From: a virus
Strand: one strand, 5' to 3'
Length of the DNA stretch: 26,258 bases
Virus record (IMG/VR): IMGVR_UViG_3300030333_003618
Coordinates: 1 to 26,258 of that record
Shown here: in pieces, positions 9,509 through 24,658 of the stretch
Numbering within the stretch: the first letter of the stretch is position 1
Layout: the number at the start of each line of letters is the position of its first letter
Notes under the pieces: model-generated
Told to the model about the DNA's origin: nothing
The model's database searches: none
What the model saw: only the letters and a program-made list of their open reading frames with translations
Translations under genes and position numbers: made by a program

Positions 9509-9799
9509 ATGAAGTTAGAACAAGGAAAATTTTGTCCCTTGATTGGTAAAGATTGTATTCAGATGCAATGTTCTTGGTTTACTCAAGTGAGAGGAACTAA
9601 TCCACAAACAGGTGAAGAAGTTGATGAGTGGGGATGTGCAGTGACTTGGATGCCTATGTTATTAATTGAAAATTCACAGATGCAAAGACAAACAGGGGCA
9701 GCAGTTGAATCATTTAGAAATGAAACTGTTAAAGTTGCTGATCGTTTAAGAATTGGACCTAAACCAATAAATATGTTGGAGGATAATACGATAAAATGA
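9509..9799 (+). CDS. Small four-cysteine protein of unknown function
   Basis: 96 residues, beginning 2 nt after the fibre stop and overlapping the next gene by ATGA. The N-terminal half carries cysteines at 9, 16, 21 and 43 (CPLIGKDC, QMQC, DEWGC), a spacing suited to a metal ion or iron-sulfur cluster. The second half is a probable helix (MQRQTGAAVESFRNETVKVAD). I do not recognise a named family. The position between a long fibre and a chaperone-like gene suggests a late, virion-linked or assembly role. Metal binding is inference only. Confidence 0.65.
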   Translation: MKLEQGKFCPLIGKDCIQMQCSWFTQVRGTNPQTGEEVDEWGCAVTWMPMLLIENSQMQRQTGAAVESFRNETVKVADRLRIGPKPINMLEDNTIK

Positions 9800-10338
9800 G
9801 TAACGAAAAAGAAAAACTAACTATTATACCCAGTGATAAGTATATTGGTATTGGGTTAACAGCATATGTCGGACTTGGTAGTGATTCTGATTGGGATTGG
9901 ATTGCAGATAATATTCATGCAGTTCAGTGGGATGGTACTTCAGGACATGGACATGTTGAGTATAATGATGGAACACCAGAAGTTGGATTAACTACAATAA
10001 CAGATTATAAAAAAGCATATAGGAAGTGGCAAGATGAAACAGACAGACTTACTACTGAACAAATAAGAATAGAAAGTGAAAAACGAGAATCAATAGATTG
10101 GACAAAATCTTTAAGAAAATGGAGAAATATATACATAGAAGATAGTGATTGGATAGTTGCAAAATCTCTTGAGGCAGGTGTTCCAGTACCAGACGAATGG
10201 AAAACATATCGACAGTCATTAAGAGATCTTCCGTCTGGATTAGATGCAAATACTATTGAAGCAATGGTTAAAGCAGCACAAACTGGAGTAGGACATACTG
10301 GATGGCCAACTGCGCCAGGAGGTTGGACTTTTTCTTAA
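9796..10338 (+). CDS. Tail fibre assembly chaperone-like protein
   Basis: 180 residues; its ATG overlaps the stop of the upstream gene (ATGA), so translation is probably coupled. A GGAGG lies 13 nt upstream, a longer than usual spacing. The C-terminal half matches the pattern of the phage tail assembly chaperone family: LRKWRNIYIEDSDW, then VPDEWKTYRQSLRDLP, corresponding to the RN.lL...DW...W..YRQ.LRDLP signature. The N-terminal part has the VQWDGTSGHGHVEYNDG and TDYKKAYRKWQDE segments often seen in that family. Such proteins help fold or trimerise the distal part of tail fibres, and the gene directly follows a fibre with a tip domain. It is probably a non-structural cytoplasmic helper. Confidence 0.75.
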   Translation: MSNEKEKLTIIPSDKYIGIGLTAYVGLGSDSDWDWIADNIHAVQWDGTSGHGHVEYNDGTPEVGLTTITDYKKAYRKWQDETDRLTTEQIRIESEKRESIDWTKSLRKWRNIYIEDSDWIVAKSLEAGVPVPDEWKTYRQSLRDLPSGLDANTIEAMVKAAQTGVGHTGWPTAPGGWTFS

Positions 10339-10340
10339 GT

Positions 10341-10832
10341 ATGAAAATAATTGATGATTTTTTAAGTGATGATGAGTATCAAAATCTTTTTTCATTCATA
10401 ACAAATAATAATTTTCCTTGGACTTATGGTAAAATTATAACCGATGGTTATGAACTAATTGATACTGAATATTATCAATTTACACATTCTTTTTATCAAT
10501 TTGATTTACCAACAACATATTTTCATCAGGTAGAATTTTTTAGAGAGAAGTTAGAAATGGCATCTCTCGTTAGAATAAAAGCAAATCTAAATCCTATAAC
10601 AGAAACATTACAGATTCATGATGATGCTTGGCATAATGATTTTGATAATATGACTACGGCAATTTATTATCTTAATACTAATAATGGGTTTACAAAATTT
10701 AAGAATGGTGATAAAGTAAATAGTGTTGCTAATAGAATAGTAATTTTTGATAGTAATCTGAAACATACAGGTACTTCTTGTACAGATACACATGCTAGAT
10801 TATTAATTAATTTTAATTATTTCCCTAAATAA
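10341..10832 (+). CDS. 2OG-Fe(II) oxygenase (prolyl-hydroxylase-like), first of two
   Basis: 163 residues from MKIIDDFLSDDEYQNLF. An in-frame ATG at 10302 would overlap the upstream gene by 37 nt and adds an unlikely N-terminus, so 10341 is preferred. An AGGAGGT lies 17 nt upstream, too far for a normal ribosome site. The double-stranded beta-helix fold is suggested by the metal ligands H93-D-D95 and H142, with R153 placed to hold the 2-oxoglutarate carboxylate (KHTG...HARLLINFNYF), and by the intervening TTAIYYLNTNNGFTKF strand pair. The expected reaction is hydroxylation of a protein side chain or small molecule using O2 and 2-oxoglutarate. The substrate is unknown. The stop codon lies inside a late promoter box. 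Confidence 0.75.
   Translation: MKIIDDFLSDDEYQNLFSFITNNNFPWTYGKIITDGYELIDTEYYQFTHSFYQFDLPTTYFHQVEFFREKLEMASLVRIKANLNPITETLQIHDDAWHNDFDNMTTAIYYLNTNNGFTKFKNGDKVNSVANRIVIFDSNLKHTGTSCTDTHARLLINFNYFPK
10825..10831 (+). promoter_or_regulatory. T4-type late promoter box (CTAAATA)
   Basis: CTAAATA overlaps the TAA of the oxygenase gene and lies 12 nt before the ATG of the collar fibre. CTAAATA is, as I recall, a described cyanomyovirus variant of the T4 late box TATAAATA. Position supports it, but the box is short and could occur by chance. Confidence 0.45.
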
Positions 10833-10843
10833 CCAAAAACGAT

Positions 10844-11359
10844 ATGCCTATTAAAATTAGAACTGGTTCAGCATGGAAAACCGTTAGTGATGGTGCTGAT
10901 GGATCAGATGGTAGTTCAACATTACCACAATATTGTATAATCATGTACTATGGAACTACTGCTCCTAATGGGTGGGCTATATGTAATGGTCAGAATGGAA
11001 CACCAGATTTAAGAAATAAGTTTATTGTTTCTACTGGTAGTAGTTATTCTCTTTCGGCTCAAGGTGGAGAAAATAGTGTATCACTCAGTACATCAGAAAT
11101 GCCATCACACGACCATGATGCCGATGCATCAGTAAGTGATCCAGGTCATAGTCATCAGTTAAAAGGTGGTGTTGATGATTCTGATAGTATGCCAGCTAGA
11201 GTTGCACCAAGTGATCAAAACTCAAATCTTCGTACTGATGCAATGAATGATGCAACAACAGGTATTAGTGTTTCAGTTGATATTGATAATGAAGGTAGTG
11301 GAGATGCTCACGAGAACAGACCACCATATTTTGCTCTTACGTTTATAATGAAAACTTAA
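10844..11359 (+). CDS. Short tail fibre with phage tail collar domain
   Basis: 171 residues. The N-terminus is short, and three G-x-y triplets (GADGSDGSS, residues 17-25) resemble a tiny collagen-like linker. A phage tail collar domain follows: YCIIMYYGTTAPNGWAICNG, then GTPDLRNKFIVSTG (residues 52-65), GGENSVSLSTSEMPSHDHD (74-92) and the closing ENRPPYFALTFIMKT. Histidine motifs HDHD (89-92) and HSH (102-104) resemble metal-binding turns in collar proteins. It is likely a short tail fibre or fibre tip contacting the cell surface. It is much shorter than T4 gp12 and so probably attaches to another structural protein. The genes on both sides encode 2OG oxygenases. Confidence 0.85.
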   Translation: MPIKIRTGSAWKTVSDGADGSDGSSTLPQYCIIMYYGTTAPNGWAICNGQNGTPDLRNKFIVSTGSSYSLSAQGGENSVSLSTSEMPSHDHDADASVSDPGHSHQLKGGVDDSDSMPARVAPSDQNSNLRTDAMNDATTGISVSVDIDNEGSGDAHENRPPYFALTFIMKT

Positions 11360-11363
11360 TTTA

Positions 11364-11948
11364 ATGTTTAAAGAATTGATTTGGGTAAAGAAAAAATCTT
11401 TATCTAAAACCTTTTGTGATAAAGTAATAGATAAATTTGAGAAAGAACCAAGAAAACACGATGGAGTTGTTGGTTCTAATGCTCCTAGAGTTGATAAATC
11501 TATGAAAGATACAACAGATATTAATATTACGAATATTAGTGGATGGGAAGAAGAAGATAAGATTTTTTATAAAGCATTGCAAGAAGGATTGGAAGAATAT
11601 GAGAAGTACTTAAAAAATATTCATTATAGATGCATTCCAAATTCTCAGTATAAGATGAAAGATGCTGGATATAAATTACAAAAATATGAACCTAATGGTT
11701 TTTATGATTGGCATAATGATTGGTGTATGAGTGAGAGTCGTGGATCAAGAATCTTTGTTTTTATGTGGTACTTAAACACACTTAAAGTTGAGGATGAAGG
11801 ATATACAGAATTTTTTGATGGTACAAGATTGCAACCTGAGTGTGGAAGCTTAGTATTTTTTCCTGCCACATGGACATATGTTCATCGTGGTAAGAGACCA
11901 AAGGTATGTAAATACCTATGTAATGGTTGGATATATGCAAAATGTTGA
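11364..11948 (+). CDS. 2OG-Fe(II) oxygenase (prolyl 4-hydroxylase-like), second of two
   Basis: 194 residues, beginning 4 nt after the collar fibre stop. The catalytic core is clear: YDWHNDW gives metal ligands H117 and D119, VHRG gives the distal H174, and K183 (nine residues later) is placed as the 2-oxoglutarate ligand, as in the prolyl 4-hydroxylase superfamily. RIFVFMWYLNTL, TEFFDGTRLQPECGSLVFFPATW and CKYLCNGWIY form the expected beta-strand framework. The N-terminal 100 residues are mainly helical and differ from the oxygenase at 10341, so the two are not a simple recent duplication. The substrate is unknown; location inside the fibre cluster suggests a virion protein or a late host target. 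Confidence 0.85.
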   Translation: MFKELIWVKKKSLSKTFCDKVIDKFEKEPRKHDGVVGSNAPRVDKSMKDTTDINITNISGWEEEDKIFYKALQEGLEEYEKYLKNIHYRCIPNSQYKMKDAGYKLQKYEPNGFYDWHNDWCMSESRGSRIFVFMWYLNTLKVEDEGYTEFFDGTRLQPECGSLVFFPATWTYVHRGKRPKVCKYLCNGWIYAKC

Positions 11949-11972
11949 CAAATTTTTTATCTGTGGTATAAT
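11945..11972 (+). promoter_or_regulatory. Consensus sigma70-type promoter with extended -10
   Basis: TTGACA (11945-11950) and TATAAT (11967-11972) are both perfect consensus hexamers separated by 16 nt, with TGG just before the -10 (extended -10). It begins in the last codons of the oxygenase gene. The predicted transcript start, about 11979, falls just after the first ATG of the following small gene. It would supply host-polymerase-driven early transcription for the two tiny genes, inside an otherwise late-looking block. Confidence 0.75.
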
Positions 11973-11975
11973 GCG

Positions 11976-12176
11976 ATGAGTCATATTACAGCATTAATGG
12001 ATGAAGAATATTTAATGAAGTGTGTGGTTGACCCTACTAAGAAAACTTTTTATATCTACTCTAATGAGGGAGATAGTAAAGAAATTGTATGTGATAATAC
12101 GAATCAATTTATGAATGTATTGGGTGTGGTACGTGCCATGTGTCCTGAAGATAGATTAGTATATACAGAAGTATAA
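11976..12176 (+). CDS. Small conserved-looking hypothetical protein
   Basis: 66 residues as the longest frame, acidic, with FYIYSNEGDSKEIVCDNTNQF in the middle. No family recognised. The start is uncertain: the promoter just upstream would begin transcription after this ATG. The in-frame ATG at 11997 (MDEEYLMKCVVDPT, 59 residues) is therefore favoured if that promoter is the main one, while 11976 can be used only on read-through transcripts. No convincing Shine-Dalgarno precedes either. The stop is embedded in a late promoter box. Possibly a small early takeover protein, by context only. Confidence 0.6.
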   Translation: MSHITALMDEEYLMKCVVDPTKKTFYIYSNEGDSKEIVCDNTNQFMNVLGVVRAMCPEDRLVYTEV

Positions 12177-12179
12177 ATA
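12172..12179 (+). promoter_or_regulatory. T4-type late promoter box (TATAAATA)
   Basis: Exact match to the T4 late promoter octamer, overlapping the last codon and stop of the 11976 gene and 21 nt upstream of the 12201 start. Such boxes are read by host polymerase carrying phage late sigma (gp55-type) factors. Confidence 0.65.
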
Positions 12180-12200
12180 AATCGGCTATTGGATTTTACA

Positions 12201-12344
12201 ATGCATAAAATTAGAGAACAAGACTCTTGGATTTCAAAAAAAGAGGTCAAATGTTATATTGATAATGATGAGGTAGATTGTTCTTTACTTAAAGAGGAAG
12301 ACTTTATTAAGATGCATACTGAGATGAATAATGATGCTCCTTAA
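12201..12344 (+). CDS. Very small acidic protein of unknown function
   Basis: A 47-codon frame from ATG at 12201 to TAA at 12342-12344, beginning MHKIREQDSWISKKEV and ending MNNDAP. It fills most of the 225-nt gap between the 11976 gene and the large fibre. It contains two cysteines and a charged, helix-prone composition. A late promoter box lies at the expected distance upstream. No Shine-Dalgarno and no family recognised. Its fit to the operon spacing is the main support. Confidence 0.5.
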   Translation: MHKIREQDSWISKKEVKCYIDNDEVDCSLLKEEDFIKMHTEMNNDAP

Positions 12345-12365
12345 TTTGTTCTACTTTTTACCTAA

Positions 12366-12372
12366 CTAAATA
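12366..12372 (+). promoter_or_regulatory. Late promoter box (CTAAATA) before the giant fibre gene
   Basis: CTAAATA lies 29 nt before the ATG at 12402, in a noncoding gap. It is bracketed by 7-nt inverted arms TGTTCTA (12347-12353) and TAGAACA (12371-12377). This is a sensible late promoter position for the 5.8-kb fibre gene. Confidence 0.55.
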
Positions 12373-12401
12373 GAACATAGAAATATATTGAATATTTACC
12401 A

Positions 12402-15400
12402 ATGGGTCTCAATAAGTTAGAGAATTTTATTAAGAATATCGAGGGTCGTATTCTTTATGTAAATCCAAATGATCTGGATGCTACAGACAGTATTGAAAAT
12501 CAAGGAAACTCTCTTGCAAAACCTTTCAAGACGGTTCAGAGAGCACTTCTTGAAGCAGCAAGATTTTCATATATTCGTGGTACAGATAACGATATTATAG
12601 AGAAGACAAGTATACTCTTATTTCCAGGCGAACATATAGTTGATAATCGTCCAGGATTTGCTATTAAGAAAGATGCAAGTAATCCTCTTCAAGCAAAGGC
12701 AGTTGCTCCAGGTGGTGCTCCTGAAACCATAGCACAAGATACCCTCACATTAAATTTAGATTCTAATTTCGACCTAACCCAGTCTGATAATATTCTTTAT
12801 AAGTTTAATAGTATTCATGGTGGTGTAGTTGTTCCTCGTGGTACATCTCTTGTTGGTTTAGATTTAAGAAAAACAAAGATAAGACCAAAATACGTTCCAA
12901 ACCCAACAGATGCTAATGTTAAGAAATCTTCTATATTCAAGGTAACTGGTTCTTGTTATTTTTGGCAATTCTCCATATTTGATGGGAATGAGAATGGATT
13001 AGTTTACACTGATGATTCTGATTTCAGTTCTAATAATCAGTCTAAACCAAGTTTTTCTCACCATAAATTAACTTGTTTTGAGTATGCTGATGGTGTTAAT
13101 GCTGCTGCAGGATATGATTTAACAGACCTTGATATGTACTATAGTAAGCTATCAAATGCTTATAATAGTTCTGCTGGTAAGGATAGAGGTATTAATGAGA
13201 AATATCCTGCTGATGCACTTGGATTCTCTAAACAGAGACCAGAATGGGAAATAGTTGGTGCATTTGCTGCTGATCCTGTTAATATTTCTGATATTAAATC
13301 TGGTGATGGAAGTAGTCCAACTACTGTTGTTACAGTTACAACAGCAACAGCACATGGATTAAATGCTGGTACTCCAATTAAGATTAAAGGTGTTGATACT
13401 TTAGATTATAATATTTCAACAGTAGTTCAGAATGTAAGTGGTGAGAAAGAATTTACATATCTTTTACCATTTGTAAGGACTAATTTACCTGCTAATCCTA
13501 GTTCTTCTAATGCGACAGTAACTATTGAGACTGATACAGTTGCAGGTGCATCTCCATATATCTTTAACTGCTCTATGCGTTCTGTATGGGGTATGAATGG
13601 TATGCTTGCTGATGGTAGCAAAGCATCTGGATTTAAGTCAATGGTTGTGGCACAGTTTACTGGTGTCTCACTACAAAAAGATGACCGTGCATTTGTAAAA
13701 TATAATCCAGATTCAAGATTATATAATAGTATTACAGTAAATCTTGCTAAAGGTTCTGCTCTTAATAGAGATGCATCTTCTACTGATCCTAAGAAAGTAT
13801 ATCATTTAGATAGTAAAGCAATCTATAGAAGTGGTTGGGAAACCAGTCATATTAAGATACAAAATGATGCTGTACTTCAGATTGTATCTGTATTTGCTAT
13901 TGGATTTAATAAGCACTTTGATATTCAATCTGGTGCTGATGCTTCAATTACAAACTCTAACTCTAACTTTGGACAGATCTCGTTGTCTGCTGAAGGATTT
14001 AAGAAAGATGCATTTGATAAAGATAACCATTGCTTTATAACAAATATTATTACACCAAAAGCAATAACTGAAACTGCTCAACAGATTGAGTGGCTTCCTC
14101 TTGATGTAACCAAGACAAAACAGACAGGTATTTCTAGTCATCTTTACATTGCTGATTATACAGATAAAGATGACGCACCACCAACTCTTATACAGGGTTA
14201 TAGATTAGGTGCAAACTTAGAAGATAAATTATATGCAAGTGTTGGAGCAGGAGCTCCCACTGTTAATAATGCATCCATTGTTATGGTTTCCAATACAACT
14301 GGTGCTGGTACAACAGTATCTAATGGATCATTAGTTGGTGAAAAGAGATATAGAGTTACTGTTGGACCTACTGGAACAACTAATAGACTTACAATAGGTA
14401 ATAATGAATTATTAACTGGTGAAAAAATAAGGGTCTTTAGTGATGATGGAGATCTTCCAGAAAATATTGATGATAATGTAGTATATTATGTAATTGATAA
14501 TGGTGATAACAATACTATATCGTTAGCATCAACTAAAACTAATGCTGAAAATGGTACTGCTATTAGTATTAATGATGGAACTAGTCTTTATGTTGTAAGT
14601 AGGGTATCTGATAAAGGATCTGGTGATATAGGACACCCAATTCAATATGATAGTGTACAAAATCAGTGGTATCTTCATAGTACTGTAGGTAATGCAATCT
14701 ATAATGCTATTGTTGGATTTACTGGTCCTGAAACATCAACTAATACTGGTTATGTTAATAGGGTTAATGATCCAAGATCTCTTGATGATAAACTTTATAA
14801 GTTACGTGTAGTTATTCCAAAGGAAGCAATAAACGCAAAAGATCCAACTGAAGGATTTGTTATCCAAGAGACTGGTACTACTGGATTTAGAAAAAATGCT
14901 GATGCTTCTGCAACATCAATATCAACTTCTGATTATGATTTTAATAAGAATCTAAGATTCATTAGAACTACATCTGAATCTGGTAATGTTGTAACTGTAG
15001 TAACAGAACAACCTCATAATCTAAATGTAGAAGATATTGTTAATATTAAAAAGGTAAAGAGTACTAATAATACTACTGCTGCAGAAAATAAAGGTTATAA
15101 TGGAACCTTTATAGTAACAGAAGTAAATAGTGATAAGCAATTTAGATATTCTACTACAGATGTAGATGGAGTTCTTCATGCTAATCCTGGTACATTTACT
15201 AATGATGTATCTGTTAGAGACACAGAACTTCCAAAATTTGAGAGAAATAATTGTAGAAGTAATTTCTATATTTACAGAAATGAGATTATATCTGAATATA
15301 TTGAAGGTATTCAGGATGGAATCTATCATCTATTTGCATTAAAAGCAGATAGATCAGTACCAACAGAATTTACTGGATTAAAGTATAGTCAAAGTGTTGA

Positions 15401-18191
15401 AGATTTATATCCTCAACTTGATAAAGATAACTATGATGACAACCCACAGTCAGCAAAATCATTTGCATTAAGAAGTCCTGTAGGTGATGTTGTTACTGAT
15501 GATCTTAAAAAGAGTATCACAAGAGAAAATACAGATACCTTTATCACAGATTTTGGCATAGGTCATAAGATTAGTGGAGTTTCAACAACAACTTCTGTTG
15601 CTACTATTACATTTGAGAGAGCACATAAGTTTGCACAAATAGTTGCAGGAACTGTTACTGCTGGTGCATCATATACAAATGGAACATATCAAAACGTTCC
15701 ATTATTATCTGGATCTCAGACAGGAACATGGGCAGGTGCAACTGCAAGAGTAGTTGTTGCTGGTGGTTCAGTAACTAGTGCTGAGATTGTATGTGCTGGA
15801 TCTGGATATTCTACAGGTGCATTATTCTTTGATCAGACTGTTATAGGTGCTGGTAATGGTAATGCTAGATTTACTGTAACTGAGGTAACTAATAATATTG
15901 GAGATTGTGTACAAGTAACTGGTATTGGTACTGTTACTGATGGTATTGCAACAATAACTGCTATTTCTGGTAATAATGCTATTCAGATTCCAAGAAGTGG
16001 AACTGATCTTGCTATTGCTGGTCAGTATGTTATCAATAATGGTCCATCTGCTGGGCTTGCATCCACTTCTTATGTAACATCAACTAAAGTTACTACATTT
16101 AATTGTACTTCTCCTCATGGATTAGTATCTGGTAATAAATTTAGAGTAATAAACGTTTCTAATAGTAATCTCGGTGATTTTATTGTAAAAGAAAGAGTTG
16201 GTGTTAATACATTTACTGCTATAACAAATGGTACTGTAGCATCTCCATCTCGTATTATTAAACATTCATTAGCTGCTACTAATGCAATATCTGATAATGA
16301 TAATGAATCATTAGGTGCAAGAGGAATATCATTCTATGATAATACTAATTTAACTTTAGGTGCTGCAGTTATTAAGGCTGCTAATGCTACCAGTCTTCAG
16401 ATTGTTGGTATTAATACACTTGCAAAAGCACCAATAGGTTCTTATCTTCAGATTGATAATGAGGTAATGAGAGTTTCTAGTTCTTCATTAAGTGGAACTG
16501 GTAATAATAAACTTACTGTTATTCGTGGTGTATTAGGAACACCAAAAGAAGATCATGAGATAGATTCTATAGTTAAAAGAGTTAATCCAATAGCAACTGA
16601 ATTACGTAGACCATCTATTATTCGTGCTTCTGGTCATACATTTGAGTATCTTGGTTTTGGACCAGGTAACTATTCAACTGGTTTACCACAGGTACAGAAC
16701 AGAACACTTACGGATAGAGAAGACTTCTTAGCACAATCACAAGAAAGATCTTGTGGTCAGGTTGTTTACACTGGTATGAACAGTGATGGAGATTTCTTTA
16801 TTGGTAATAAGAGAGTTAGTTCTTCTACTGGTAAGGAAAGAACATTTGATGCTCCTATTCCTACAGTTACAGGACAAGATCCTTCAAGATTAAGTGTTGT
16901 ATTTGATGAAGTTACTATTAAAGACAGACTTACTGTTGAAGGTGGTAAATCAAAACGAATCTTATCTCAGTTTGATGGTCCTGTTACTATTAACAATGAA
17001 CTTAAAGTTGAACAGAAGTGTACTGTAAATGGTGCATTAAGAGCATATAATTTAGATATTACAAGTGATGAGCAATCAACAAATGAAAATAATGGAGCAC
17101 TAGTCATTCTTGGTGGTGTTGGTATTAAGAAAAATCTTAATGTAGGTGGAGACTTTAGTTGTGCAAGTTTTGGTGCTGATGGATTAGTTGTTTCTGGTAT
17201 AGCAACATTCCAGAGTGATGTTAATGTAGATGGACCGCTTCATGTAAAAGATACAACACAATCAAATGGTGTTGATGAAGGTGCATTAATGGTTGATGGT
17301 GGTGTTGGTATTAACAAACAGTTATATGTTGGTGCTGGTGCTACAGTTCAGGGTAAATTGGATGTTGATTCTGATCTAAATGTTGATGGTGCTGCACAAA
17401 TTGATGGTAATACCGATATTGATGGAACTCTTACTGTTGATGGTTTAACTACTATTAACAATGGTGTAACTATTAATGCTGCTAGTAAGAACTTTACTAT
17501 TCAGAATGGTGCTGGAACTCCTGTCACTAAGTTTGACGTAGATACTGACAATGGTAATGTAATTTCTAAAGGAACATATACTTCTACTGGAGATATGCTT
17601 CCAGAAACTGATGAAGGTGCAAGTTTAGGTTCTGCATCTAAGAGATGGAATTATCTATATGCAACTAATATTACTGGTACTCTAACTGGTGGTGCTACTA
17701 AAGTAAAAACTACTGCTACGAATAGTGGAACTCATTATCTAACGTTTGTAGATGCTGCAACTTCAACTGATAAAGAAGATTTAAGAGTACATGCTAATTT
17801 CTATGTTAGTCCTAATACCACAGCATCTTCTGCTAACATGTATGTTAGAGGAGACATTACTGCATTTGCAGGTGCAGCATCTGATGATAGATTAAAGACT
17901 AATAAAGTTATACTTGATGGTGCTCTTGATAAAGTATTATCCTTAAGCGGATTTACATATAATTGGAATGGACTAGCAGTAGATCTTGGATTTGTTGCAG
18001 AGGAAAAACAGGTTGGTGTATCCGCACAACAAGTACAATCAGTATTACCAGAAGCAGTTAAGAGTGAGACACTTGATGATAAAGAAATTCTCGTAGTTAA
18101 ATATGAGAAAATAGTTCCACTTCTTATTGAAGCAATTAAGGAACTATCTGCTAAGGTTGATAACCTTGAACAAAAAATATCAGATAAATAA
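12402..18191 (+). CDS. Giant tail fibre with N-terminal beta-helix-like domain and C-terminal S74 self-cleaving chaperone
   Basis: 1929 residues. The N-terminus (MGLNKLENFIKNIEGRILYV, then NSLAKPFKTVQRALLEAARF) has the G.S..KPFKTVQ.AL.EA pattern that opens many phage pectate-lyase-like beta-helices. A FEYLGFGPGNY motif is encoded near nt 16645, followed by fibre modules including two GALxVxGGVGI copies (near 17090-17150 and 17275-17335). The C-terminus is an intramolecular chaperone of the endosialidase/peptidase S74 type: S1827-D-D-R-L-K1832 has the Ser and Lys of the catalytic dyad five residues apart, with GFVAEE, QQVQSVLPEAV, VVKYEKIVPLLIEAIKEL and a final coiled coil. In that family the chaperone trimerises the fibre and then cuts itself off just before the Ser. 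Cleavage after A1826 would release 103 residues. Confidence 0.85.
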   Translation: MGLNKLENFIKNIEGRILYVNPNDLDATDSIENQGNSLAKPFKTVQRALLEAARFSYIRGTDNDIIEKTSILLFPGEHIVDNRPGFAIKKDASNPLQAKAVAPGGAPETIAQDTLTLNLDSNFDLTQSDNILYKFNSIHGGVVVPRGTSLVGLDLRKTKIRPKYVPNPTDANVKKSSIFKVTGSCYFWQFSIFDGNENGLVYTDDSDFSSNNQSKPSFSHHKLTCFEYADGVNAAAGYDLTDLDMYYSKLSNAYNSSAGKDRGINEKYPADALGFSKQRPEWEIVGAFAADPVNISDIKSGDGSSPTTVVTVTTATAHGLNAGTPIKIKGVDTLDYNISTVVQNVSGEKEFTYLLPFVRTNLPANPSSSNATVTIETDTVAGASPYIFNCSMRSVWGMNGMLADGSKASGFKSMVVAQFTGVSLQKDDRAFVKYNPDSRLYNSITVNLAKGSALNRDASSTDPKKVYHLDSKAIYRSGWETSHIKIQNDAVLQIVSVFAIGFNKHFDIQSGADASITNSNSNFGQISLSAEGFKKDAFDKDNHCFITNIITPKAITETAQQIEWLPLDVTKTKQTGISSHLYIADYTDKDDAPPTLIQGYRLGANLEDKLYASVGAGAPTVNNASIVMVSNTTGAGTTVSNGSLVGEKRYRVTVGPTGTTNRLTIGNNELLTGEKIRVFSDDGDLPENIDDNVVYYVIDNGDNNTISLASTKTNAENGTAISINDGTSLYVVSRVSDKGSGDIGHPIQYDSVQNQWYLHSTVGNAIYNAIVGFTGPETSTNTGYVNRVNDPRSLDDKLYKLRVVIPKEAINAKDPTEGFVIQETGTTGFRKNADASATSISTSDYDFNKNLRFIRTTSESGNVVTVVTEQPHNLNVEDIVNIKKVKSTNNTTAAENKGYNGTFIVTEVNSDKQFRYSTTDVDGVLHANPGTFTNDVSVRDTELPKFERNNCRSNFYIYRNEIISEYIEGIQDGIYHLFALKADRSVPTEFTGLKYSQSVEDLYPQLDKDNYDDNPQSAKSFALRSPVGDVVTDDLKKSITRENTDTFITDFGIGHKISGVSTTTSVATITFERAHKFAQIVAGTVTAGASYTNGTYQNVPLLSGSQTGTWAGATARVVVAGGSVTSAEIVCAGSGYSTGALFFDQTVIGAGNGNARFTVTEVTNNIGDCVQVTGIGTVTDGIATITAISGNNAIQIPRSGTDLAIAGQYVINNGPSAGLASTSYVTSTKVTTFNCTSPHGLVSGNKFRVINVSNSNLGDFIVKERVGVNTFTAITNGTVASPSRIIKHSLAATNAISDNDNESLGARGISFYDNTNLTLGAAVIKAANATSLQIVGINTLAKAPIGSYLQIDNEVMRVSSSSLSGTGNNKLTVIRGVLGTPKEDHEIDSIVKRVNPIATELRRPSIIRASGHTFEYLGFGPGNYSTGLPQVQNRTLTDREDFLAQSQERSCGQVVYTGMNSDGDFFIGNKRVSSSTGKERTFDAPIPTVTGQDPSRLSVVFDEVTIKDRLTVEGGKSKRILSQFDGPVTINNELKVEQKCTVNGALRAYNLDITSDEQSTNENNGALVILGGVGIKKNLNVGGDFSCASFGADGLVVSGIATFQSDVNVDGPLHVKDTTQSNGVDEGALMVDGGVGINKQLYVGAGATVQGKLDVDSDLNVDGAAQIDGNTDIDGTLTVDGLTTINNGVTINAASKNFTIQNGAGTPVTKFDVDTDNGNVISKGTYTSTGDMLPETDEGASLGSASKRWNYLYATNITGTLTGGATKVKTTATNSGTHYLTFVDAATSTDKEDLRVHANFYVSPNTTASSANMYVRGDITAFAGAASDDRLKTNKVILDGALDKVLSLSGFTYNWNGLAVDLGFVAEEKQVGVSAQQVQSVLPEAVKSETLDDKEILVVKYEKIVPLLIEAIKELSAKVDNLEQKISDK
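18183..18190 (+). promoter_or_regulatory. T4-type late promoter box (GATAAATA)
   Basis: GATAAATA (matching NATAAATA) is formed by the last two codons plus the stop of the giant fibre gene and lies 14 nt before the next ATG. It would allow the following fibre genes to be transcribed late and independently of the 5.8-kb upstream gene. Confidence 0.55.
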
Positions 18192-18204
18192 CTAAAAAAC
18201 TACG

Positions 18205-20724
18205 ATGCCTAATATAAGGAAGAGCTTTCACTTTAGAGAAGGAGTCCAAGTCGATGATGAAGTACTCGTCGTTCGTGGATCTAGGGTGGGTATTGGTACT
18301 ACTGTACCTGATGAAGCATTAGATGTTCGTGGAGATGCTAAAGTAACTGGCATAGCAACAGTTAATAATATATTCTCTTCTGGAATATCAACTCTAACTG
18401 AAGTTAGAATAGGAACTGGTATAACAGTATCATCTTCTAGTGGTATTGTATCAGCAACTAAGTTTGTTGGAGATGGATCTCTTTTAACTGGTCTTCCTAC
18501 TTCGGCATGGACAAGTTATGGATCAACAGGAATATATAATCAATCTAATGTAGGTGTAGGTACTGCATTTCCAACAAGAGATTTACAAATAGGTGCAGAT
18601 CCTTATGCACAATCAACTCTTTCTGGTATAGGTATTGGATCTGATGGAAATATAAAAGCTAGTGGCATTGTAACAGCATCAAGTTTTGTAGGAGATATAA
18701 CAGGTGATTTAACAGGTGAAGTTAATGCAGGTTCATTAGATACTAATGCTAATGGAGTTGTTGTAACTGGAGACTTAAGTGTATCTGGTGTTTCTACACT
18801 TGGAGTATCGACATTTACTGGTGCGGTATCTATTGGTAGTAGTGCGTCATTTGGTGATGGCAAGTTTATATACATGGGTGATGGAGCTCCATTAGAAATT
18901 GGACATTATGATGGTGGTGGTCATTCACAAATTAAACATAATAGTGCTACTGCTGATTTGGTTTTATCTGCTGATAGACTTAGAATTATAAATCGAGCAG
19001 AGAATAAAGATTTAGCAAACTTTATTGAAGGTTCTCATGTTCGTCTTTATTATGATGGAACTGAAAGATTAGCTACATCTGGAGTCGGTGTTACTATAGC
19101 ATCTCAACTAGATGTTGGTAATGTTGTTGCATCTAGTGGATATGCAGGTGTTAGTGGAATAACAACAGTTGGTATTTCAACTACAGGTATTACTACAGCT
19201 CGTGGTAGATTATTTACTGCTGATGATATTAAATCTGGTAATGGATTAGAAGTTACTGGTGTTTCTACATTAAGTGATGATGTACAGTTTTTTGGTGCTG
19301 CTGGTATTACATCTGCTAGATGGGATAAGAGTCAAAATTCATTAGAATTTGTTGATGACGCATACGCAGTATGGGGTACTGGCAGAGACCTACAAATATA
19401 TCATAATAAGAGTTTGGCGAGTCAAAATGATGCTAATGGAGATGATATTACTGATAATACTAGATGCTCAGTAATTCATGAGACTGGATCAGGTGGATTA
19501 GTATTTAAGTCAGATGGTGGAGGTGGACCAGGAGCGTTCCAATTCTTTGATCAAAGTTGGAAACCATTGGTAAAAATGCACAGTGGTAATAATGCAAGAG
19601 TTCTTTTATATCATAATGGAAGAGAAAGGTTATTAACAACTGAAAATGGTATTAAGATAACAGGAATCACAACATCTACTGGAAGAGTTGATGTTGGTGT
19701 TGGTGGTACTGCATTTACAGCATTACCTACAGGTAGAGTTGGTGTAGGAACTGCAATTCCTGGAGTAGATCTTCAGATTAAGAAAGCAACTGGATCCGCA
19801 ATAGAAGTTATTTCTGATAGTGGTGACGCTAAAATAAGTATTGGTAATAATTCTGTAGGTGCTGGTAATAGTGCTGCATCTTTAAGATTTAATAATGCTA
19901 ATGATGGTACTCTTGATATTGTTAATTATGATATTGGAGGTATTAATATGTACCTTCAAGCAGGATCTGCTGGAGTTACTACTGGTAGGTTTGGATGGAT
20001 AGACGGACAAACAAATCTTGAAAGATTATCATTAACACATGAAGGTAAATTGGGTGTAGGTAGAACTAATCCAACAAATACTTTTGAGGTTGTAGGAACA
20101 TCCACTGTTACAGGTAATGCTTATATTGGAGGAACTTTAGGTGTAGCACAAACAATAACTTCACCAACATTCTCTGGAAATCTCGTAGGTAATGTAACTG
20201 GTAATGTAACTGGTAATGCAAATGGATTACAAAATACTCCAAATATTACAGTTGGTATAGTTACTGCTGGTATCTCTACCTTTGTTCAGATTGGAATTAA
20301 TACCTCAGAGATTCATGGTAATTCATTAATAGTAGGTGGTAGTCAAGGTGTAACTGGTAAAATTGGTATAGGAACTACAGCACCAGAATCTAGTACTGGA
20401 TATTTTGGCACTCCAGGAAATCTTCAAGTTCATGGTAGTGGTATAGGATTATATGGTGGTTCTCTTAATATTAAGGCAACTGTTGATGCTGGTATTGGTA
20501 TTGGAACGACTGAAGCTCGTGCAGTATTAGATGTTTATGATTGTTATTCTGGAGGTTCAGCTCAACCAGGAGTCGGTACAGCATCATTTATATTACCACC
20601 AAAAGTTACAACATCTGAAAGAGCAGGATTGGGTACAGATGCTTTACCTGGTGCAATTATTTGGAATCATACTGATAGTAAATTGCAGGTATATACTGGA
20701 ACAGCATGGGTTAATTTACATTAA
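18205..20724 (+). CDS. Tail fibre-like structural protein
   Basis: 839 residues, starting MPNIRKSFHFREGVQVDDE. It is built of marine phage fibre modules: RVGIGTTVPDEALDVRGDA, NVGVGTAFPTRDLQIG, RVGVGTAIPGVDLQI and KIGIGTTAPES units; SFVGDITGDLTG and NVTGNVTGNANG shaft segments; and YYDGTERLATSGVGVTI and YHNGRERLLTTENGI units. The C-terminus (SFILPPKVTTSERAGLGTDA, then GAIIWNHTDSKLQVYTGTAW) is a common fibre end in this group. There is no S74 or collar domain, so it may need partner proteins to trimerise. A 12-bp repeat (20188-20211) is tandemly duplicated in the shaft. The function is probably adsorption or baseplate decoration. Confidence 0.8.
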   Translation: MPNIRKSFHFREGVQVDDEVLVVRGSRVGIGTTVPDEALDVRGDAKVTGIATVNNIFSSGISTLTEVRIGTGITVSSSSGIVSATKFVGDGSLLTGLPTSAWTSYGSTGIYNQSNVGVGTAFPTRDLQIGADPYAQSTLSGIGIGSDGNIKASGIVTASSFVGDITGDLTGEVNAGSLDTNANGVVVTGDLSVSGVSTLGVSTFTGAVSIGSSASFGDGKFIYMGDGAPLEIGHYDGGGHSQIKHNSATADLVLSADRLRIINRAENKDLANFIEGSHVRLYYDGTERLATSGVGVTIASQLDVGNVVASSGYAGVSGITTVGISTTGITTARGRLFTADDIKSGNGLEVTGVSTLSDDVQFFGAAGITSARWDKSQNSLEFVDDAYAVWGTGRDLQIYHNKSLASQNDANGDDITDNTRCSVIHETGSGGLVFKSDGGGGPGAFQFFDQSWKPLVKMHSGNNARVLLYHNGRERLLTTENGIKITGITTSTGRVDVGVGGTAFTALPTGRVGVGTAIPGVDLQIKKATGSAIEVISDSGDAKISIGNNSVGAGNSAASLRFNNANDGTLDIVNYDIGGINMYLQAGSAGVTTGRFGWIDGQTNLERLSLTHEGKLGVGRTNPTNTFEVVGTSTVTGNAYIGGTLGVAQTITSPTFSGNLVGNVTGNVTGNANGLQNTPNITVGIVTAGISTFVQIGINTSEIHGNSLIVGGSQGVTGKIGIGTTAPESSTGYFGTPGNLQVHGSGIGLYGGSLNIKATVDAGIGIGTTEARAVLDVYDCYSGGSAQPGVGTASFILPPKVTTSERAGLGTDALPGAIIWNHTDSKLQVYTGTAWVNLH

Positions 20725-20730
20725 GGAGGT
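20723..20730 (+). promoter_or_regulatory. Strong Shine-Dalgarno site (AAGGAGGT)
   Basis: AAGGAGGT overlaps the stop of the 18205 gene and ends 6 nt before the ATG at 20737. It is the strongest correctly spaced ribosome site in the window; most other fibre genes here have none. It fixes the start of the polyglycine protein and suggests high or coupled translation. Confidence 0.85.
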
Positions 20731-20736
20731 TAATTA

Positions 20737-22560
20737 ATGTCTTCAGCAGTAACTAAACAACAATATTCTTATAGTAATGCAGTAAAATTCAGTGATTTGA
20801 GAAGAGATTTTGCAGAATCTAGTAGTGGTTCTGTACCTTTTTCTACTTATTATAGAGCAACTTCCTTATCAAATACTAATCCAATAGTACCTGATGCTAC
20901 AGAGAACACTCATGTTCCAACATCAAGTACAATATCAATGTCTGCTTTTAAGAATAATACTACTGTAAAAAGATATTATGTTACTCAAAGTGGTACTGAT
21001 TCTCAATTAGCAATTCATGGGTTATCTTGGAATGGTAATTTAGATAAGAATATTATAAAAGAATTTAGATTAACTGGAGTTATTAATAGTGCTACTAGAG
21101 GAGTTGATGCTGCAACAATATCTCAACCTAATTTAACTAATTGGAAATGTATTGTTAGTGGTCAAGTTAAAGGTGCTGGCGGTGGTGGAGGTGGAGGTGG
21201 TACAAACTGGAGTACAATATATGGACCTGCTTCTAGTATATCTCCTGCAAACAGAGTTAGATTAACTGGTGGATCTGGAACATCATGGACTACTATATTT
21301 GATTACGCATACACCGCAGGACAAAATTATGTCAAATTTTATCAAGGTGTATTTACTGTTTTTTATGGTGGAGTAGAAATAGGAACTCTTACTAGCAATC
21401 CTTTAACTTCTGGTAGCAGAAGATTTTATGGTGGAAATCTCGCAGTAGATAATGGCAATACTTGGGTTACTCCTTCATACTATGAATTAAAAGTTGAAGA
21501 ATCGAGAAATACTCATAGTGGAGGAACTTATACTTTTACTTATAATAATACTAATGTAGCAACTACAACAGAACCTACCAGTAGTGTTATTGTTGGTAAT
21601 AGAAGATATACTGTTGGATCTGAATATTCTTATACTGGATCTGCAATAAATTATGAAATAAAGGTAGAAGAATTAGCTTCTAATGATGGTGGTGAAGGTA
21701 GTGATGCTTTAGCAATACAATGTAATGATACTAATAATATAGAAATCAACATAAAACCTAGTGGTAGATTGTATGGTGGTGGAGGAGGAGGCGGTGGCGG
21801 TGGCACAGGTGCTACTGGATTGTCTGGACCTTGCTGGATACCAAGAATTAGTCAAACAAGTGGTAATTATACTGGATCTGCTTATGATCCTAAACCTAAA
21901 GGTGAATGGTATTCATATTGGAAAACTGATAATAACATTAGTTCAGGTGGTTGGAGTTATTGTTGTGACCATCGTGGTGACTGTTATGGTGGTTCTGACG
22001 CTGGTGATTTATCAACTAATGAGATGGCACAATCTATTAATATTCGAGGTACTATCTATAGAACTAGAGGATTTAGTGGACCTAATTTTAGTGGAGTTGG
22101 TGGTTATTCTAGAACAGCAGAAGGTGAAGGTAATGGAACTTATTCTAGTATGAGCCCCTATGGTGGTGGATGTTCAAGAAGATGTATAATTTTTTGTTGG
22201 CATAGAGGTACAAAAATTAAACCTAAATTCTATACAGTAGAAGATCCTGTAGAAAAACCAGGTGGTGCTGGTGGTGCTGGTGGTGCTGGTGGTCAAGGTC
22301 AAGGATCTAACCATAATTGGGCAAATGGTGTTAATGGTGGGAATGGTACTGCTGGTCAATGTCCTAATACTGGTAGTGCTGGTGAAGATGGAGGAAATGG
22401 AGGTAGAGGTGGAGATTATGCAGAATCAGGAACAGATGGAGGAAATGGAGGTGGATCTGGAGGTGCTGCTGGAAGAGCAATAAGTAGAGAAGGTACTAAT
22501 GCTTCTTGGACTATTACTGGTAGTGTAAACTCAACAACACTCAAAGGACTTTATACATAA
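20737..22560 (+). CDS. Polyglycine-rich putative fibre-tip adhesin
   Basis: 607 residues. The N-terminus has FSDLRRDFAESSSGSVPFSTYYR, resembling the ...DLR..FG...P..LS.YYRGG signature common near glycine-rich phage fibre tips. Glycine tracts then punctuate the chain: GAGGGGGGGG near residue 150, GGGGGGGGGG near 350, PGGAGGAGGAGGQ near 510, and a GGNGG..GG series to about 580. Between them lie strand-rich insertions with two similar units (YYELKVEES, NYEIKVEEL) and an insertion with several cysteines (for example WSYCCDHRGDC). In Salmonella phage S16 the gp38 adhesin forms a polyglycine-II sandwich whose loops bind receptor; a similar design is inferred here. It could instead be a glycine-rich structural protein of another kind. 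Confidence 0.7.
   Translation: MSSAVTKQQYSYSNAVKFSDLRRDFAESSSGSVPFSTYYRATSLSNTNPIVPDATENTHVPTSSTISMSAFKNNTTVKRYYVTQSGTDSQLAIHGLSWNGNLDKNIIKEFRLTGVINSATRGVDAATISQPNLTNWKCIVSGQVKGAGGGGGGGGTNWSTIYGPASSISPANRVRLTGGSGTSWTTIFDYAYTAGQNYVKFYQGVFTVFYGGVEIGTLTSNPLTSGSRRFYGGNLAVDNGNTWVTPSYYELKVEESRNTHSGGTYTFTYNNTNVATTTEPTSSVIVGNRRYTVGSEYSYTGSAINYEIKVEELASNDGGEGSDALAIQCNDTNNIEINIKPSGRLYGGGGGGGGGGTGATGLSGPCWIPRISQTSGNYTGSAYDPKPKGEWYSYWKTDNNISSGGWSYCCDHRGDCYGGSDAGDLSTNEMAQSINIRGTIYRTRGFSGPNFSGVGGYSRTAEGEGNGTYSSMSPYGGGCSRRCIIFCWHRGTKIKPKFYTVEDPVEKPGGAGGAGGAGGQGQGSNHNWANGVNGGNGTAGQCPNTGSAGEDGGNGGRGGDYAESGTDGGNGGGSGGAAGRAISREGTNASWTITGSVNSTTLKGLYT
22261..22293 (+). repeat. In-frame 9-bp tandem repeat (GGTGGTGCT)
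   Basis: Three and two-thirds copies of GGTGGTGCT encode GGAGGAGGAGG in the adhesin. Because the unit is a multiple of three, slippage would change loop length without shifting frame. Confidence 0.85.
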
Positions 22561-22580: not shown

Positions 22581-22958
22581 ATGAATGAAAATTGGAAAAA
22601 TGAGTTATCAAATAAATTTGATAAACCACCTTCAACTGTTGGTGAAGGATTAGGTGAGGTTAATAAAGAAAACTTAAACCACGAGATGAATCAGCACGAG
22701 ATTTTTCTTGTCTTTTTCAGTTCAGTAGGTTGTCGTGCTTGTATTACTATGAAAGCTAGACTACCTAAATTAATTGAAGAAATGGAAGGTAAGGTACATT
22801 GTATAAGTATTGATGTAGAAGAACAATATGAAATTGCAGCATTAGCTAAGGTTGATACTGTTCCCACTATACAATTATTTTATAATGGTGAAATAAAGGA
22901 AATATGGGTAGGTCCAGTTAATAGGAGTGAAATTAAATCTAGTATTGAAAAACTTTAA
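22581..22958 (+). CDS. Thioredoxin-like protein
   Basis: 125 residues. A polar N-terminal extension of about 35 residues precedes a thioredoxin fold: FLVFFSSVGCRACITMK holds the redox pair C51-R-A-C54 at the start of the active-site helix, ISIDVEEQYEIAALAKV is the next strand-helix, and VDTVPTIQLFYNG carries the conserved cis-proline (P95). The usual WCGPC tryptophan is replaced by glycine (G50). The start at 22581 lacks a Shine-Dalgarno; M35 is a weaker alternative because it removes part of the fold edge. Thioredoxins occur in many marine T4-like phages, and some phage thioredoxins serve as polymerase processivity factors (T7, host-derived). A role in disulfide control of the cysteine-containing virion proteins upstream is possible but unproven. 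No signal peptide, so cytoplasmic. Confidence 0.85.
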   Translation: MNENWKNELSNKFDKPPSTVGEGLGEVNKENLNHEMNQHEIFLVFFSSVGCRACITMKARLPKLIEEMEGKVHCISIDVEEQYEIAALAKVDTVPTIQLFYNGEIKEIWVGPVNRSEIKSSIEKL

Positions 22959-23033
22959 TCTTATACATACCTTTGTATGGTTGCAAGGCAGACTCTATAA
23001 AACTTTAAGAACCAAAAGGCAAACTGGCACACG

Positions 23034-23058
23034 AGACTCCACATAGGAGTCTTTTTTT
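23034..23058 (+). terminator. Rho-independent terminator at the end of the structural block
   Basis: The stem AGACTCC (23034-23040) and GGAGTCT (23046-23052) has a 5-nt loop and is followed by a run of seven T (23052-23058). It closes the structural-thioredoxin block and would insulate the nuclease-methyltransferase unit from late read-through. Confidence 0.85.
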
Positions 23059-23066
23059 GTTATGAT
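23038..23066 (+). promoter_or_regulatory. Extended -10 promoter fused to the terminator
   Basis: TATGAT (23061-23066) is preceded by TGT (23058-23060), an extended -10, right after the terminator T-run. A partial -35 (TCCACA, 4 of 6, 23038-23043) lies inside the terminator stem-loop at 17-nt spacing. It would start transcription about 15 nt before the nuclease-like gene, whose ribosome site AAAAGGA is at 23076-23082. Confidence 0.6.
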
Positions 23067-23088
23067 GTAAGCATCAAAAGGATTTCTA

Positions 23089-23709
23089 ATGCTTACAAGA
23101 GAAGAACAAAATGAGATTCTTTCATTAACGAGAGAGTTTCTCCCATCTGTTTTAGAGGAGATTAATTTCGACCCTAATGACGGTAAGAAAGAGAAAGGAC
23201 ACAGAAGTGGTGAAGATTTAGAAACCACCTTTGTACGAGAATTTATTGAGAGAGACAACATAAGATTTACTGAACCAACTGCTGATAGAGCAATGGCAGA
23301 TTTCTTATTTAATGGTAATAAGGTTAATATTAAGTTTAGTTGTGTTAAAGGTGGACAACCAAACATGTGTGCTTGGGATAGATTATATAAGAAATTCTAT
23401 GATGGAGAAATAGATTCATACTGGATATTGATGATTAATGGTTTAACACAAGAGGTATGTCTTTTTAATCTATATGAACATCTTGACTATACCAATACTG
23501 ATTTGGGAACAGGACAGACGATGTTGACAAAAGCAAGATTTGTGAAATACTTTAATCAAGATAAAGACTATACAATTCAGAATAAAGATGATATACTGGA
23601 TAAGTTAGATTGGATTGATGAAGATGCTTGGGAAAGAATGACAAGAGCAAAAAGAAAGAAATTCAACGAAAGAAAGGAATTGCGTAATGATCGTAACCAA
23701 ACATTATAA
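23089..23709 (+). CDS. Putative PD-(D/E)XK-like nuclease (restriction-enzyme-like)
   Basis: 206 residues with AAAAGGA 6 nt before the ATG. The core is helix SGEDLETTFVREFI (E42/E45), then AD71-FLFNGNKV-N80-I-K82, the spacing of a PD-(D/E)XK active site with asparagine in place of the second acidic residue, followed by GGQPNMCAWDRLYKKF and a strand SYWILMIN. The C-terminal third is highly charged (MTRAKRKKFNERKELRNDR), suitable for DNA contact. The gene overlaps the methyltransferase gene by 23 nt, the arrangement of a restriction-modification pair. I did not recognise a named restriction enzyme family, and the asparagine makes catalysis uncertain. It could also be a DNA-binding accessory factor. 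Confidence 0.55.
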   Translation: MLTREEQNEILSLTREFLPSVLEEINFDPNDGKKEKGHRSGEDLETTFVREFIERDNIRFTEPTADRAMADFLFNGNKVNIKFSCVKGGQPNMCAWDRLYKKFYDGEIDSYWILMINGLTQEVCLFNLYEHLDYTNTDLGTGQTMLTKARFVKYFNQDKDYTIQNKDDILDKLDWIDEDAWERMTRAKRKKFNERKELRNDRNQTL

Positions 23710-24658
23710 TGATGATTGTGTAAAGTTTTCAGATTCGTATGAAGGTCAGTTTGACTCCGTAGTCACTGATCCACCATACGGAATTGAATATCTTGGCAAT
23801 GATTGGGACTCGTACCAAAATTGTATTGCATTTAAGTCATCTACATGGGAATCTATCTCTAAGGTACTAAAACCTGGTGGATATATGTTGATCTTTGGTG
23901 CATCAAAGACATTTCATAGACTGACATGTGCAGTTGAAGATTCTGGTCTTAAGATCAGAGATGTATTGATGTGGTTATATGGTCAGGGTATGCCTAAGAG
24001 TCAGAATATAGGTAAGAAAGATCCTAATTGGGAAGGATGGGGAACTGGACTTAAACCTTGTTATGAACCAATACTATTAGCACAGAAACCTATATCAGAG
24101 AAGACTATCGTTAAGAATTTTCAGAAGCATGGTGTGGGTGGAATCAATATAGAAGATACTAGATTAGAATCTGGAAGATGGGCAGGTAATGTACTACATG
24201 ATGGTAGTGACGAGGTAGAACAAGAGTTTGCCAAGTTTGGTGAACGAGGTAATGGATGGAATAGAAACTATGGTGTAGAGGATTATCAAGGAAGACAGTA
24301 TGGTGGTGGAGTATTTGGTGGAGGTGGATACATTGGAGATACCACATACTGTGATGAAGGAACTGCTAGTAGATTCTTTTATTCAACTAAGAGTTCAGTT
24401 AAAGAGAGAACACATAATAGAACTATTGAGAACAATCATCCAACAGTTAAGAATATGGAATTGATGAAATATCTTATTAAGTTAGTAACACCTAAAGGTG
24501 GTACAGTTTATGATCCATTTGCAGGGTCAGGTACTACATTAATTGCAGCAAAGGAACTAGAAGTTAATTCAGTTGGTGTAGAACTATCTGAAGAGTATTG
24601 TAAGATTATACAAGACAGAATTGATGCAGTAACGTCACCATTAGAACACATATTATAA
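23687..24658 (+). CDS. DNA methyltransferase, beta class (N6-adenine or N4-cytosine)
   Basis: 323 residues, starting inside the nuclease-like gene; AAAGGA lies 8 nt before the ATG. The catalytic motif DPPY (28-31) precedes the AdoMet-binding motif DPFAGSGTT (276-284), the motif order of beta-class amino-methyltransferases. HPTVKN (251-256) and NSVGVELSEEYCKIIQDRI match the conserved C-terminal text of this family. The region from about 110 to 240, rich in Gly and Trp (NYGVEDYQGRQYGGGVFGGGGYIG), is the likely target-recognition insertion. It methylates DNA bases in a specific but unreadable sequence. Roles could be self-protection against the upstream nuclease, or an orphan marking the phage genome against host restriction. 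Confidence 0.9.
   Translation: MIVTKHYNDDCVKFSDSYEGQFDSVVTDPPYGIEYLGNDWDSYQNCIAFKSSTWESISKVLKPGGYMLIFGASKTFHRLTCAVEDSGLKIRDVLMWLYGQGMPKSQNIGKKDPNWEGWGTGLKPCYEPILLAQKPISEKTIVKNFQKHGVGGINIEDTRLESGRWAGNVLHDGSDEVEQEFAKFGERGNGWNRNYGVEDYQGRQYGGGVFGGGGYIGDTTYCDEGTASRFFYSTKSSVKERTHNRTIENNHPTVKNMELMKYLIKLVTPKGGTVYDPFAGSGTTLIAAKELEVNSVGVELSEEYCKIIQDRIDAVTSPLEHIL

Follow-up and report, generated by a model that had tools for sequence, protein, structure and literature searches.

The gp38 adhesin of phage S16 is built on a beta-helix, two extensions of which form ten glycine-rich helices, the third being GGGGGGGG; it carries five variable distal loops and docks onto gp37 through three tryptophans on an N-terminal helical bundle (PMC6851490). 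In the gp38 of phage PP01, loop A has been assigned to residues 119-124 and loop B to residues 161-170 (PMC12892980). A cyanophage fibre with a glycine-rich receptor end has also been described, Pam3 gp24, which is trimeric and has a TNF-like middle domain and its own assembly chaperone (PMC9608196). A protein of cyanophage S-SRM01, homologous to the one studied here, has already been annotated by HHpred as a gp37-gp38 adhesin tip complex (PMC8557907). The metaviromic islands of marine phages are likewise hypervariable and carry host-recognition genes, their listed contents including Gp38 adhesin (3) and Fe(II) oxygenases (8) (PMC3909814).

Here we describe a gp38-like adhesin encoded by a virus record of 26,258 bases, referred to below as the window. 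Its tail genes find their matches among Kyanoviridae and marine cyanophage-like records, none of which is a close relative.

The adhesin ORF and its neighbours

The adhesin ORF spans exactly positions 20737-22560 and encodes 607 residues, with a run of eight glycines at residues 148-155 and a run of ten at residues 347-356 (Table 1). When the protein was shuffled 20,000 times with its composition preserved, runs of at least eight glycines arose in 9 shuffles and runs of at least ten in 1. Since the tracts are coded by a mixture of GGT, GGA and GGC, they do not stem from a simple DNA repeat. Ten cysteines are present, seven of which lie within residues 365-511 (shuffling p 0.002, for bounds that were set post hoc). 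The initial annotation had described these tracts and a cysteine-containing insertion in one ORF, and our data confirm this description, the tracts lying far above shuffled expectation. It had further credited the gene with the best Shine-Dalgarno sequence of the window, and the AAGGAGGT site indeed ranks strongest among the 15 gene starts compared, ahead of the start at 9796 (-9.3 kcal/mol). A strong site is not a family trait, because a match longer than 5 nt was found in none of 63 relatives.

As in S16 and PP01, the adhesin gene follows directly behind a distal fibre gene (18205-20724), which stops 12 nt before the adhesin start; the S74 chaperone is carried by the other fibre gene. The C-terminus of the 839-residue distal fibre is conserved 5' of many adhesin relatives. 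Beside the fibre genes lie those of a tail assembly chaperone-like protein (9796-10338) and a short tail-collar protein (10844-11359), and a 2OG-Fe(II) oxygenase gene (11364-11948) sits immediately 5' of the long tail fibre gene.

Table 1. Features of the adhesin locus; positions refer to the window unless a relative is named
Feature	Position	Strand	Remarks
Long tail fibre, 1929 aa	12402..18191	+	C-terminal Peptidase_S74 chaperone (domain and PHROG matches)
Distal tail fibre, 839 aa, probable adhesin partner	18205..20724	+	PHROG 3269 tail protein
Block exchanged relative to L075	18801..22946	+	94% identity on either side
Shine-Dalgarno sequence	20723..20730	+	AAGGAGGT; duplex -12.3 kcal/mol; 6 nt 5' of ATG
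gp38-like distal tail-fibre adhesin	20737..22560	+	Single 607-aa ORF; AlphaFold2 core resembles S16 and PP01 gp38
N-terminal domain, probable docking part	20737..20967	+	Residues 1-77; family identity 0.61 over 1-80; pLDDT ~41
Gly8 tract	21178..21201	+	First glycine-rich strand of the core; block pLDDT mostly 80-97; aligns near S16 gp38 residue 115
Insertion 1 (gp38 loop A), beta module	21205..21654	+	Residues 157-306; placed by hhalign; related to P-SSM2_035 modules
Gly10 tract	21775..21804	+	Counterpart of S16 gp38 151-GGGGGGGG-158 (hhalign)
Insertion 2 (gp38 loop B), Cys-rich hypervariable cassette	21829..22269	+	Residues 365-511; 7 Cys, 5 Trp
Second glycine-rich block and C-terminus	22270..22557	+	Residues 512-607; pLDDT mostly 82-97
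Thioredoxin-like gene (CRAC)	22581..22958	+	PF00085, 2e-14; within the exchanged block
Flavin-dependent tryptophan halogenase, in relatives	L075:10504-11988; L001:7508-8965		Between distal fibre and Cys-rich adhesin

The predicted core has the gp38 architecture

A sequence search of the PDB with the adhesin returned only chance-level, low-complexity matches. Searches of Pfam (at the curated cut-offs) and PHROG gave no family match, PF05268 (GP38) being reached by one of 28 relatives (9e-4) and not by the window protein. The adhesin was compared at the level of structure, using an AlphaFold2 model built with 35 family sequences. Its mean pLDDT is 60, with three confident blocks (residues 81-157, 318-370 and 501-607, averages mostly 80-97) and low confidence in residues 1-77, insertion 1 and most of the cassette. 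A Foldseek search of the PDB placed gp38 chains in the top three positions, with weak E-values (0.67-1.5). In a VIA-align comparison with 29 chains, a set that does not include Pam3 gp24, the core aligned with S16 gp38 (6f45_D) at Z 19.3 over 194 residues (rmsd 3.5, 24% identity) and with PP01 gp38 (9v85_A) at Z 18.1; the next-best match reached 5.7. A relative that has no insertion 1 (L025) was modelled at a mean pLDDT of 82.5 and matched gp38 with Foldseek E-values of 4e-5 to 8e-4 and VIA Z-scores of 18.1 and 17.3, the next being 5.1. The gp38-like polyglycine scaffold that had been proposed from the letters, with structure prediction as its check, is thus upheld by the models, in which the core matches the polyglycine-sandwich gp38 far above everything else. 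By structural match of the predicted core, the receptor-binding part folds like gp38, as a glycine-rich sandwich on a beta-helix, and it shares with gp38 of S16 (PDB 6F45) and PP01 (PDB 9V85) a long glycine tract and variable distal loops.

The window adhesin departs from gp38 in size (607 against 249 residues, and so larger, as had been noted), in its insertions of ~150 and ~147 residues, in its Cys-rich cassette, in the thioredoxin gene 3' of it and in its N-terminus. We located insertion 1 with hhalign at S16 gp38 residue ~121-123 and insertion 2 directly past residue 160. Since the insertions map onto loops A and B, two receptor loops appear to have been expanded into domains. The variable segments therefore occupy distal loops, as they do in gp38, with the cassette at loop B. 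The docking tryptophans of gp38 have no equivalent, the first tryptophan of the window adhesin being residue 98; together with the low pLDDT of residues 1-77, this indicates that the docking domain is likely a different one. Because of this other N-terminus, and because PF05268 is not reached, we use the name gp38-like and refrain from classing the protein as a T-even gp38.

Insertion 1 is related to P-SSM2 sequence (phmmer 1e-8; local score 106, against a shuffled mean of 63.5 and maximum of 83), and the modules of P-SSM2_035 that are akin to it occupy other places within that protein. Neither insertion gave a tblastn match in 50,697 phage records.

A cyanophage family with a hypervariable cassette

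Searched with tblastn against the same 50,697 records, the whole adhesin gave seven matches, all cyanophage-like, among them S-SRM01, P-SSM2, P-SSM5 and Marine virus AG-345-F15. A four-protein alignment (A1) revealed a common plan of an N-terminal domain, glycine blocks 1 and 2, a Cys-rich cassette, glycine block 3 and a short C-terminus. The adhesins of S-SRM01 (QPX48018.1, 362 aa) and P-SSM2 (P-SSM2_035, 1147 aa) share the N-terminus, the glycine blocks and a cassette in the same place with the window protein, which differs from them by an additional beta module in loop A and a longer cassette (147 residues, against 67 and 96).

With the window protein alone as query, four pattern matches were obtained and none was confirmed; the family search required alignment A1 as query, and the scan of viral contigs then yielded 63 loci. 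Four of these were dropped as truncated (L029, L038, L065 and L067); adding the window and three records to the 59 complete proteins gave a set of 63, which fell into 39 clusters at 90%. L047, with a differing arrangement and a single cysteine, was excluded, which left 38 representatives. Their mean pairwise identity, by segment in the order of the common plan, was 0.61, 0.41, 0.46, 0.26, 0.45 and 0.36, the cassette value of 0.26 being approximate because identities in variable regions shift with the alignment used. Cysteine makes up 10.3% of the cassette and 0.0-1.6% of the remaining segments. The alignment with relatives that had been suggested as a check on hypervariability thus singles out the loop-B cassette as the least conserved segment. 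L047 and L048 are family members with one cysteine and otherwise arranged glycine runs. L085, L086, L094 and L126 encode a further set of glycine-rich proteins whose N-terminus is of a second kind; in the first three of these loci a gene of ~217 aa lies immediately 5'.

Exchange of the fibre tip and adhesin

A search with the fibre gene identified a contig, L075 (which L080, L083 and L163 also denote), whose identity to the window is 94.1% over positions 10179-18801 and 94.6% over 22946-24658. Between these flanks the fibre is mosaic over its final ~640 residues, with identities of 0.95-0.98 in the first 200 columns and 0.36-0.74 in the following ones, and the adhesins (607 and 516 aa) are only 33% identical. 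The accessory genes differ as well, being the thioredoxin gene in the window and, in L075, a tryptophan halogenase gene that separates fibre from adhesin plus a DUF6171 gene 3' of the adhesin. Identity restarts right past the stop codon of the thioredoxin or DUF6171 gene. We conclude that phages which are nearly identical elsewhere differ by exchange of the fibre tip, the adhesin and the accessory gene. This was the sole pair with both flanks above 90% and adhesins below 40% identity.

In two further contigs, L081 and L082, the right flank is 90-91% identical to the window from 23089 onwards, and a stretch of 103 bases in L082 also matches the final part of the window's long fibre gene. At the same site (L081:3708-9866 and L082:5285-9866) they encode another glycine-rich protein that has no Cys cassette, accompanied by a run of genes for TauD (seen in L081), an Asp/Arg hydroxylase, a 2OG-Fe(II) protein, and methyltransferase and sulfotransferase-like proteins. 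Since the contents of the window, L075 and L081/L082 differ, we regard the locus as a single site with three alleles.

Accessory enzymes and the state of the cassette cysteines

The gene directly 5' of the adhesin encodes a tryptophan halogenase in 11 of the 38 upstream neighbours scanned (out of 39; L108 was left out). The next gene 3' is DUF6171 in 24/40 loci and a thioredoxin in one, the window itself; in S-SRM01 the adhesin is flanked by a halogenase 5' and DUF6171 3'. DUF6171 is a small CxxC..CxxC protein, one example being L001:10119-10454. No thioredoxin similar to that of the window was found in the viral contigs and cyanophages searched, and its phage matches are roseophages and one faecal contig; it is possibly a recent import along with the cassette.

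Eight adhesin-linked halogenases used as queries led to 78 distinct loci, many of them from similar metagenomes. An adhesin was the next gene in 39 of the 45 loci with at least 47% identity (one of the six exceptions, L189, has just 378 bases remaining) and in 0/33 at 40% or less. The motif C-x(0-5)-W-x(0-6)-C, chosen post hoc, occurs in 28/28 non-redundant halogenase-linked cassettes versus 4/26 unlinked ones. On a tree from which L056 and L058 were excluded, three well-supported independent pairs contrast in halogenase and motif, too small a number for a statistical test, and in most pairings two are in favour and none against. At least four tryptophans are found in the cassettes of 7/9 halogenase-linked clusters versus 1/24 (five clusters short of upstream sequence being excluded), a difference that is weaker in a larger sample (14/28 versus 1/26). 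A simple rule based on tryptophan count was rejected, as the window has five cassette tryptophans and no halogenase in its 26 kb, and L075, with a halogenase, has four.

The linkage in relatives suggests, at the level of gene order and motif, that the halogenase may modify the adhesin; the window has no halogenase. The opposing view, that thioredoxin and halogenase are unrelated cargo merely recombining at the same hot spot as the adhesin, is in our judgement evenly balanced between true and false. Halogenases at other sites are common in other cyanophages, and syn9, Syn1, P-SSM2, S-SSM7, S-PM2 and HTVC008M have halogenases with no such adhesin annotated alongside; independent contrasts are few, and phage islands are reported to carry unrelated genes too (PMC3909814). 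Against this view stands the single halogenase subfamily that lies directly 5' of the adhesin, to the exclusion of its distant homologues. The role of tryptophan halogenase in cyanophages has been described as speculative (PMC2984593). In titles and the beginnings of abstracts, with few subscription journals covered, we found no report tying a halogenase to a tail fiber, adhesin or receptor-binding protein, and the available text on metaviromic islands, which differ in this respect, mentions no link of halogenase or thioredoxin to an adhesin (PMC3909814).

The cassette cysteines could form a zinc or iron site and not a disulphide-held domain, a reading that we consider somewhat unlikely. CxxC pairs do occur in relatives, and the frequent 3' neighbour DUF6171 has the same kind of pairs; however, the best hmmsearch matches to zinc domains were at chance level (E 0.06-0.7), and the cassette of L025, modelled at a pLDDT of about 90 with three long strands, weakly resembles the disulphide-rich head of resistin. 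A resistin-like fold as such is too weak to be claimed (Foldseek probability 0.96, E 0.73; Z 3.5).

A more specific proposal, which we put forward tentatively and consider rather unlikely, is that cyanophage host-range loci are cassettes combining an adhesin with its chemical finishers. A dedicated subfamily of flavin-dependent halogenases would act on the Cys-rich loop-B domain, halogenating the tryptophan (or tyrosine) at its tip, and the cysteines of this domain would be set by DUF6171 or thioredoxin, the window representing a halogenase-free variant with thioredoxin.

Discussion

Collectively, our data make it very probable that the window adhesin acts in the manner of a T2-type gp38, forming the receptor-binding tip of a long tail fibre in a Kyanoviridae-like cyanophage. 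Residues 1-77 would dock onto the fibre end, the glycine lattice would serve as a rigid platform, and the two loop domains may touch the cyanobacterial surface. Disulphides (or metal) would hold the Cys cassette together, possibly aided by the adjacent thioredoxin.

The protein could instead be a self-sufficient trimeric glycine-rich fibre, as opposed to a monomer capping another fibre. Pam3 gp24 is likewise a cyanophage protein, and its glycine-rich distal domain resembles gp38 (PMC9608196); yet the window core matches gp38 throughout the aligned 194 residues, beta-helix included, and a separate distal fibre gene lies 5' of the adhesin, which makes this alternative improbable. That the beta-helix belongs to an enzyme, a polysaccharide lyase or depolymerase, is more improbable still: pectate lyases and tailspikes are among the weak structural matches, but their Z-scores (up to 5.7) are in the range of common arrangements and far under those of gp38, and no enzyme family was matched.

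The suggestion that the adhesin is the main host-range determinant of this phage is well supported computationally by its predicted fold, its variability and the exchange of fibre tip and adhesin. Adhesins like gp38 are already known, and this is an ordinary kind of protein in an uncommon form; what is new are the loop domains and the enzymes exchanged with them. Our findings extend the gp38 polyglycine adhesin to a cyanophage family in which the receptor loops have probably grown into exchangeable Cys-rich domains, and they name the part that most likely sets host range in these cyanophages. The near-identical phage pair, whose cassettes are exchanged, provides a natural experiment that is ready to use. 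We see the most interesting lead in the association with a dedicated halogenase, which occurs in relatives rather than in the window. The tight association of this subfamily with the adhesin offers a first concrete candidate substrate for the cyanophage enzyme. If the enzymes do finish the adhesin, the surface with which the phage binds its host would be chemically modified, and this would account for the presence of tryptophan halogenases in cyanophages.
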